From Candidatus Methylobacter titanis (GTDB lineage Bacteria > Pseudomonadota > Gammaproteobacteria > Methylococcales > Methylomonadaceae), in contig JAQSDX010000009.1 of NCBI GenBank assembly GCA_029946125.1, forward strand, positions 1 through 64,000: 64,000 nucleotides of DNA, written 5' to 3'. The notes under the pieces are model-generated. The model did not search any database, was not told where the DNA came from, and saw nothing but the letters and a program-made list of their open reading frames with translations. Positions 10,240-11,913 of this stretch are shown piece after piece (positions within the stretch are counted from its first letter, which is position 1; every line of letters begins with the position of its first letter). A program made the translations under genes and the position numbers.

Positions 10240-11913
10240 ATGTCTCACCAATCTGACCTCATCAGTACCGACATCAACGCCTATTTGGCCCAACACGAGC
10301 ATAAGGAGCTGTTGCGCTTTTTAACCTGCGGCAACGTTGACGACGGCAAAAGCACGCTGATCGGCCGCCTGTTGCATGACTCAAAGATGATTTACGAAGA
10401 CCAGCTGGCGGCGGTGCAGGCGGACAGCGTCAAGTCCGGCACCACCGGATCTGGCAAGATCGATTTAGCGCTGTTGGTCGACGGCTTGCAGGCCGAGCGC
10501 GAGCAAGGCATCACCATCGACGTGGCCTACCGTTATTTCTCGACGTCGACCCGCAAATTCATCATTGCCGACACGCCGGGACACGAGCAATACACCCGCA
10601 ATATGGCGACCGGCGCGTCGACCTGCGATTTGGCGGTGATTTTGATCGACGCCCGCTACGGCGTGCAAACCCAAACAAAACGTCACAGCTTTATTGTGTC
10701 GTTGCTGGGCATCAAGCACATCATTGTCGCCATCAACAAAATGGATCTGGTGGGCTACAACGAAGAGACTTTCAATAAAATCAAAGCAGATTATCTGGCG
10801 TTTGTAAAAACACTCGACTGCATGGATGCAGGAGGTAGGGCAACGCAGGGAGCAGTTGCCGAGGATTTACACGACATTCATTTCATTCCGATGTCGGCGC
10901 TGGATGGCGACAACGTGGTCAACCCCAGCGCCAATATGCCCTGGTTCACGGGTAAACCGATGATGGAGCTGCTCAACAGCATTGAAATCGCTGGCGACCA
11001 CAATTTCGTTGACGCCCGCTTCCCGGTGCAATACGTCAACCGTCCCAACCTGGATTTTCGCGGTTTTTGCGGCACAGTCGCCTCCGGCGTGTTTCACAAA
11101 GGCGATGCGATTACTGTTCTGCCTTCCGGCAAAACCAGCAAGGTTAAAACCATCGTCACCTACGACGGCGAGTTGGAGCAGGCATTTACCGCTATGGCTG
11201 TGACATTGACGCTGGAAGACGAAATCGACATCAGCCGAGGTGATTTGATTATCGGCAAGCAAGCCAATACGCCGACTGTTGCCTTGAAATTCAAGGCCAC
11301 TATAGTCTGGATGACCGAGCAAGCGATGACGCCGAGCCGACGATATGTAATCAAACTGGCTACCCAGAGCGTATCCGGCTCGGTATCGATGATTCATCAT
11401 CGCATCGACGTCAACACGCTGGAACATCACGACGCCAACGAGCTGAAGCTTAACGAAATCGGATCCTGTACCGTCGCCGTCAATACACCGGTGGTGTTCG
11501 ATCCCTACCAACGCAACAAAGCCACTGGTGCGTTTATCGTCATCGACCGGCTGACTAATGCCACCGTAGGCGCCGGCATGATCACCGGCGACGCCAGTGC
11601 AGAAGAGTGGACGCAGGTGACTGCCGAAGAACGCGCTACCCGCTTCGGCCAGACCGCCTCTATCATCGTTTTGAGCGGCGGCAACGCCAAACAGACGGCT
11701 TATCATCTGGAGCGCAAACTGTTCGATACCGGCCATGCAGTAACGGTTTTGGAGCAAGCCACCGACGAATTGGCGCTTGCGGTCAAAAATGCCGGGCTGT
11801 TCTGCCTGTGTCTGGATCACAAGCCTTCTGCCGCTGATCTGGCGTTCGATTGCGATCAATACAAAGTCGATGACATTTACGGCACACTGATGAATTGTGG
11901 AATAGTTTTTTAA
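10240..11913 (+). CDS. cysN: Sulfate adenylyltransferase subunit 1, with in-frame repeat insert and extended C-terminus
   Basis: A 557-residue GTPase subunit of ATP sulfurylase; GTP hydrolysis drives APS synthesis by CysD. Visible are G1 [10 protein letters not shown]3 DTPGHEQY and G4 NKMDLV. Two oddities. First, residues 194-209 ([16 protein letters not shown]) are encoded by a copy of an interspersed repeat; the flanking KTLD and LHDIHFIP would join directly without it, between the G4 and G5 loops. Second, the protein is about 80 residues longer than a stand-alone CysN. The extra tail (about 470-557) reads [18 protein letters not shown], resembling the start of an APS kinase (CysC) domain but without a usable P-loop. 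Confidence 0.95.
10816..10866 (+). repeat. Copy 2 of the [12 protein letters not shown] repeat, in frame inside cysN
   Basis: About 48 bases starting GACTGCATGGATGCAGGAGG encode 16 residues in frame. The same core occurs near 8165-8203, 19492-19540 (minus) and 41956-42039 (minus). Confidence 0.9.

Follow-up and report, generated by a model that had tools for sequence, protein, structure and literature searches.

The cysN locus and its insertion

The window (the whole 64,000-nt stretch of Candidatus Methylobacter titanis DNA that was analysed) contains at 10240-11913, on the plus strand, the gene cysN for the large subunit of sulfate adenylyltransferase, with 557 aa (ORF listing; NCBIfam CysN models, E 7e-189 to 3e-226). 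An element of 48 nt is inserted in it at 10815-10862 (+), forming 16 codons, CGACTGCATGGATGCAGGAGGTAGGGCAACGCAGGGAGCAGTTGCCGA, delimited by a 48-nt gap against the empty site of the same-genus genome G002. The first-pass annotation had placed the insert at 10816-10866; these ends did not hold, but the length of 48 nt and the 16 added residues did, the latter being CysN residues 193-208, or 194-209 when read one residue later. The empty site of G002, the closest relative compared for cysN, reads AAAGCACT|GGATTTACAC with ACT left of the junction, and the single 48-nt gap bears out the earlier statement that cutting 48 bases restores a normal CysN junction. The CysN of G002 is 95% identical to that of the carrier (match length 1623 nt vs 1671). 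The insert residues were absent from all 36 other CysN of the alignment (64 to 95% identical; picked from 80 loci), which excludes a chance match through 16 residues shared by relatives. At the sequence level, an exact 48-nt repeat inside cysN with the reading frame kept is confirmed.

The insert follows NKMD (166-169) and precedes SAL (219-221), which we take to be the GTPase G4 and G5 motifs; both motifs are kept and the reading frame runs unbroken through all 557 aa, as the first-pass annotation had described for an insert between the G4 and G5 loops. Translation of the insert into CysN is inferred from the open frame. In the structure model, residues 194-209 had pLDDT <50 and lay between helix 175-194 and strand 212-217; the model was mediocre overall (pLDDT 68.9, pTM 0.55), and its N-terminal G domain was poor. 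In the alignment, the solved CysN 1zun_B, presumably that of P. syringae, had a gap at the position of the insert. As modelled, the peptide most likely forms a loop, poorly structured and tolerated, that leads from the helix after G4 to the strand toward G5. A second full-length cysN, 79% identical and free of the insert, is present in the same genome (G000:C72), so that the insert-bearing cysN might be dispensable.

Sequence, folding and targets of the repeat

The consensus of the aligned copies is CGACTGCATGGATGCAGGAGGTAGAGCAACGCAGGGAGCAGTTGCCGA, a unit of two small hairpins (A and B) in tandem that starts with CGAC and ends with CCGA. Within the cysN copy, hairpin A (CTGCA..TGCAG) corresponds to 10818-10831 (+) and hairpin B (GCAAC..GTTGC, with one bulged base) to 10840-10859 (+), as predicted from the fold of the family consensus as single-stranded DNA and from the letters of the copy. 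The letters GTAG are located between the hairpins at 10835-10838 (+), internal and at neither end of the unit. The single-stranded DNA fold of the consensus was better than that of shuffles both for the 48-nt form (z -3.25) and for a 47-nt form (z -3.73) that has one G fewer in the second loop. A stop codon occurs in one of the six frames of the 48-nt form, and the other five are open.

Single copies of 47 or 48 nt starting with CGA (n = 157) provided 108 distinct contexts, with A on the left in 85/108 and G on the right in 87/108; empty sites identify these flanking bases as belonging to the target. Target duplication was not found at the closest filled and empty pairs (cysN, ccmI, nested nasA-like, nested VWA, hybrid kinase and leuS). 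The empty-site junctions were T|G in cysN and ccmI, A|G in the hybrid kinase and in the nested nasA-like and VWA copies, and A|A and A|T in leuS.

Some copies of the related genome G021 were located inside other palindromic repeats, GTTACTTTCTTTT..AAAAGAAAGTAAC or CGAAGCT..AGCTTCG (L205, L244 and L254, and likewise in mid-palindrome L226, L239, L249, L264 and L265), a pattern that would fit a preference for hairpin loops as targets.

Copies in the window, the genome and the order

The core GGAGGTAGAGCAACGCAGG (<=3 mismatches) matched the window at 8165, 10831 and 19507 (minus), against 0 matches in 100 shuffles. The match at 8165 belongs to a variant copy at 8150-8195 (+; 46 nt as aligned), situated between ORFs of at least 100 aa, in which the B half is joined to another left half, CCCACATCCCTGTGGGTTATGCA. 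The match at 19507 belongs to a copy upstream of the murF domain at 19495-19542 (-; 48 nt as aligned), within the upstream extension of the murF frame, where the first-pass annotation had its copy at 19492. A further copy at 41956-42039 (-) is split by a second repeat, GCACCAACAGTAGGCGCTTTA, which also occurs at 8078-8098; it is in frame inside the minus-strand ORF 41659-42318 (219 aa, weak anti-sigma-factor-antagonist match), for which no relative was compared, and is outside both the core count and the count of verified genes given below. The matches to other copies in the window that had been reported in the first-pass annotation were thus recovered.

Other repeats were also present in the window. 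A 72-nt unit occurs in three tandem copies, 96% alike, upstream of bioD (18417-18637), and an inverted 26-nt pair (29663-29688 and 31022-31047; 88%) surrounds two ORFs. Another dispersed repeat, with core TGCGTAACATCAGT or a variant of it, is found at 38-76, 38451-38471, 61467-61505 and 61569-61589. A direct repeat of 300 nt, 77% alike (39154-39453 and 39736-40035), lies in neighbouring ORFs that are perhaps paralogues.

A slightly degenerate core (<=2 mismatches) had 48 matches in the 3.51-Mb genome and 0 in the reversed control. At the same threshold the core was found in 132/237 genomes of the family, 21/29 genera and 23/23 genomes of the genus, and with <=1 mismatch in 128/311 genomes of the order; these are counts for a single core pattern, by which diverged copies are missed. 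In f4, another family of the order, the core was absent from all 38 listed genomes. Several of the genomes are MAGs; the same inserts are seen in the isolate M. tundripaludum SV96, which has them in LeuRS and in the nasA-like gene.

Copies inside genes

By comparison with G002 or G021, at least 14 of the 46 units of this genome are in frame inside conserved proteins, so the whole-genome search extended the in-frame insertion first noticed in cysN to other genes and, as reported below, to other genomes. The hosts are cysN, ccmI, a sigma-54 response regulator (L004), cobS, phoR, a nitrate-reductase-like gene (nasA-like), purL, mfd, a hybrid kinase, mutL, a GGDEF-EAL protein, a VWA protein, an unnamed protein (L079) and a methyltransferase (L080, rlmI-like); ccmI and rlmI are assumed names. 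Composite inserts were found in cobS (21 extra residues), phoR (31), purL (28) and the GGDEF-EAL protein (67), and in mutL, in which other hairpin sequence surrounds the element. Empty sites fitting one 48-nt unit were available for cysN, ccmI (vs G021), mutL, the hybrid kinase (G002), the L079 gene and a site before cobN, the mutL and L079 pairs having further junction changes besides the 48-nt unit. In other genomes the codon test described below indicated UvrD, a SpoT/RelA protein, a sigma factor and an M3 peptidase as hosts, without an empty site.

Three candidates were rejected as in-gene copies: L011, in which the copy is just before the start of a gene that we take to be cobN, and L005 and L009, with doubtful frames. 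The count of 14 also excludes copies located at a protein end or close to one (murB, L076; ApeP-like, L075; HisRS-like, L068; HemX, L074) and of other ORFs crossing a copy (L016, L017, L071 and L083).

Leucyl-tRNA synthetase is normally essential, and its gene, leuS, is the strongest in-gene case. A leuS match at E 1e-100 was obtained in 22/23 Methylobacter genomes (none in G019), and 21 rows were aligned, the fragment of G017 being left out. Five of the 21 genomes carry the element as 16 residues in frame, at two sites. In G014, G001 and G007 it follows residue 33; in G021 and G002 it lies in the editing domain. At either site the DNA shows a 48-nt unit, and the solved LeuRS 3zgz_A has a 16-residue gap against the second. 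No second full-length leuS was found in the carriers at E 1e-100, two matches in G007 being pieces of one frame. The carriers were not grouped on the tree, which was weakly resolved (4/18 inner branches starred).

Three more sites with repeat-like inserts were observed in leuS of the 21 Methylobacter genomes (L386-L406), with the frame open in all. Inserts were of IAKDGVYAANLPGAGAA type in G008, G015 and G016 and of EASVPAHAPRLRPVG type in G002, G013 and G007, and in leuS of G007 a long repetitive sequence takes up as many as 56 alignment columns.

Three genes formed ladders of 0, 16 and 32 residues. Both the nasA-like and the VWA gene had 0 residues in G002, 16 in G021 and 32 in this genome, and the rlmI-like gene had 0 in G002, 16 in G021 and 32 in G010, with a different enlargement there in this genome. 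The second copy is placed within the first at GCAGGA|GGTAG or GGAGGTA|GAGC, both of them A|G. As read from these alignments, in the three ladder genes the second copy is one that entered the first.

Frame, length and selection

Copies were assigned to genes from the usage of the 45 codons flanking them on either side, without reference to the length of the element. The codon score was trained on the genes of the window, with 91.5% sensitivity on the same genes, and 3.2% of wrong-frame samples passed. The loci were 46 for 48 matches in this genome (G000), 90 for 101 in G002, and 72 in G021, the latter covering 74 zero-mismatch matches of 127. Copies with identical context were dropped, leaving 212 units, and two at contig edges were set aside, leaving 210.

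Coding sequence was present on both sides, on one strand, in 23/210 units, and 20 of these 23 were in frame. Length was a multiple of three in 19/23 copies in genes vs 73/187 others (three genomes; Fisher P 8.4e-5). This effect rests on G002 (9/10 vs 29/83) and G021 (3/4 vs 17/67), as there was none in this genome (7/9 in genes vs 27/37 elsewhere). A fourth genome, G010 (70 loci for 142 matches), was not significant alone (3/6 vs 21/67; P 0.39), and the four genomes pooled gave 22/29 in-gene vs 94/254 other copies (P 8.9e-5). Two 100-nt arrays of G010 were probably mis-delimited, since they translate through. The codon test was strict, with 6/14 relative-verified cases of this genome falling in the other class; by this test most copies were outside genes in the three genomes and also in G010. 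A length of 47 nt was found in 115/254 of the other copies over four genomes and in 5/37 in this genome. The three out-of-frame cases were L028, L364 and L343, the first two being the same short sequence in two genomes, with 47 nt and a stop soon after.

The frame is kept because the unit has 48 nt, no target duplication was seen and five of the six frames are free of stops. The in-frame cases were in sense direction in 16/20, and the frame with the stop was used by 0/20 (probability 0.026 if frames were random and cases independent; 18 of the 20 are independent, as two pairs are orthologous sites). In G010, 6/73 copies were in genes, compared with 241/600 positions drawn at random from those loci; such a deficit would be expected from purging of most insertions that hit genes. 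There was no excess of silent changes in eight in-gene sense copies, in which differences from the consensus numbered 7, 8 and 6 by codon position, and nothing therefore indicates selection on the peptide itself.

Origin and spread of the insertions

Very probably, a palindromic mobile repeat of 47 or 48 nt, dispersed in Methylobacter and its family, entered cysN in frame, and those copies that are tolerated survive selection. It sits mostly between A and G, with no target duplication at the closest empty sites; a 48-nt copy in a gene adds 16 codons, and in the genes compared with relatives the host frame stays open. Some copies are located within older ones and lengthen the host protein by a further 16 residues. 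Copies in a surface loop or linker and in a tolerated frame would survive selection, and other copies would be purged.

Regarding the agent of spread, Y1 (HUH) enzymes of the IS200/IS605 and RAYT kind transpose single strands, and the traits of the element resemble theirs. The absence of duplication, the imperfect hairpins, the biased target and the unit size of 47 or 48 nt suggest mobilisation on single strands by a Y1 transposase of the IS200/IS605/RAYT kind, which is plausible and is proposed tentatively. Y1 genes were found in 7/7 genomes searched (55 matches, 37 of them with loci, two of which are pieces of one gene), and the GTAG motif of the element would lead to an expectation of linkage to RAYT genes. 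A full copy was present at only 2 of the 37 Y1 loci examined (L066 and L067, both in this genome), which lowers the RAYT claim. From copy density, an estimated 0.3 or so full copies would be expected in the 7 Y1 loci of this genome; the 30 loci of relatives, with an expectation of about 2, had none. Single half-matches occurred in the Y1 loci L278 and L291. No parent element sharing the ends and encoding a Y1 transposase was found around the 37 loci. One copy (L026:1485-1532) is inside what, read by eye, is a Y1/RAYT-like gene, where it has TGA instead of the TGG of the consensus and may have broken that gene.

Alternatively, the copies could have spread with no transposase involved, by recombination or by template switching from hairpin to hairpin. 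This would account for the frequent placement of copies within other hairpin repeats and within one another, and for the scant linkage to Y1 genes; it agrees poorly with clean 48-nt insertions in unique coding sequence and with the preferred A|G junction, and is considered rather unlikely. It is less probable still that the cysN copy is a decaying paralogue, and that the insert, being in a redundant and perhaps inactive gene, tells little about tolerance. The second, insert-free cysN speaks for such decay; the intact frame and the retained GTPase motifs speak against it, as do the element in leuS of five relatives in which no second copy was found at E 1e-100 and, in this genome, the further copies in purL, mfd and mutL. 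Clean ends and the many housekeeping hosts would also be compatible with removal of the element from RNA or protein, as a tiny intron or an intein, leaving a normal product. This is very improbable: all self-splicing introns and inteins known to us are far larger than 48 nt with two small hairpins, no Rfam family except a tRNA reached the cut-off in the window, and the open frame kept by the insert would be needless if it were excised. An ancestral origin of the extra residues, followed by their loss from relatives, is formally possible for one gene and can practically be dismissed, given their absence from every other aligned CysN and the match of the insert DNA to dispersed copies.

Entry of a mobile repeat into cysN remains the preferred reading, and it has consequences for the interpretation of proteins. 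Selfish DNA may in this way turn into protein sequence in housekeeping genes, by 16 residues or multiples of 16; to our knowledge, this has been discussed mostly for Rickettsia and some REP-rich genomes. In annotation, 16-residue blocks such as that of CysN and those of WMQEVEQRREQLP type are probably translations of a mobile repeat and not functional motifs. Methylobacter has many close free-living genomes, some from isolates, with filled and empty sites and alleles of 0, 16 and 32 residues in the same genes, which makes the cost, expression and fate of the insertions directly testable. It is a speculative and rather doubtful suggestion that the architecture itself (16 codons, no duplication, five open frames and self-nesting) is suited to coding and builds new segments stepwise in essential enzymes that stay unbroken; if so, repeated transposition would grow protein segments in steps of 0, 16 and 32 residues. 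If the 48-nt form arose or was kept for life in genes and the 47-nt form for life outside them, genes would be the second habitat of the element.

Comparison with known systems

Classical MITEs differ from this repeat in their target-site duplication, absent here at the closest empty sites. Palindrome-associated elements (PATE) are characterised by imperfect hairpins, no target duplication and a target bias, all of which are also seen here. PATE are described in PMC4853749 as derived from IS200/IS605. The left-end target of the Methylobacter repeat is a bias (A in 85/108, G on the right in 87/108), and no parent element was seen around the 37 Y1 loci.

Di Nocera et al. 2013 (PMC3733652) describe GTAG and CGTC REPs within genes in several species, with repair, replication and tRNA-synthetase genes among the hosts; the main text of that paper has no word beginning with "Methylo". 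The GTAG REPs and the Methylobacter repeat have in common short stem-loops with GTAG, many copies, some of them intragenic, and hosts among gammaproteobacteria. They differ in that GTAG is internal here and an end position fits only if the B half alone is the unit, and that the Methylobacter unit is made of two different hairpins in tandem. As to RAYT linkage, a full copy was present at 2/37 Y1 loci.

Rickettsia palindromic elements (RPE) are frequently inserted in frame in genes (PMC10969869; also PMC3733652, each as far as accessible), and the likeness to them proposed in the first-pass annotation is fair in the sense of working alike by in-frame gene insertion, with a repeat in frame in many unrelated protein genes here too. 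The families in the accessible part of the review have units of about 150 bp and obligate intracellular hosts (PMC10969869), and by that description differ from a 48-nt repeat of free-living methanotrophs that nests in steps of 16 codons. The shorter RPE-4 and RPE-6 have CGTC repeats in the accessible part of PMC3733652, whereas the Methylobacter consensus has no CGTC on either strand. Among the titles listed for repeats in methanotrophs or Methylobacter in the open-licence literature, and in passages of PMC4853749, there was no description of this repeat family, and on that account family, hosts and codon-sized nested growth are called new. In-frame insertions of REP and RPE sequences are already known, and what appears to be new is the family, its free-living methanotroph hosts and its codon-sized nesting.
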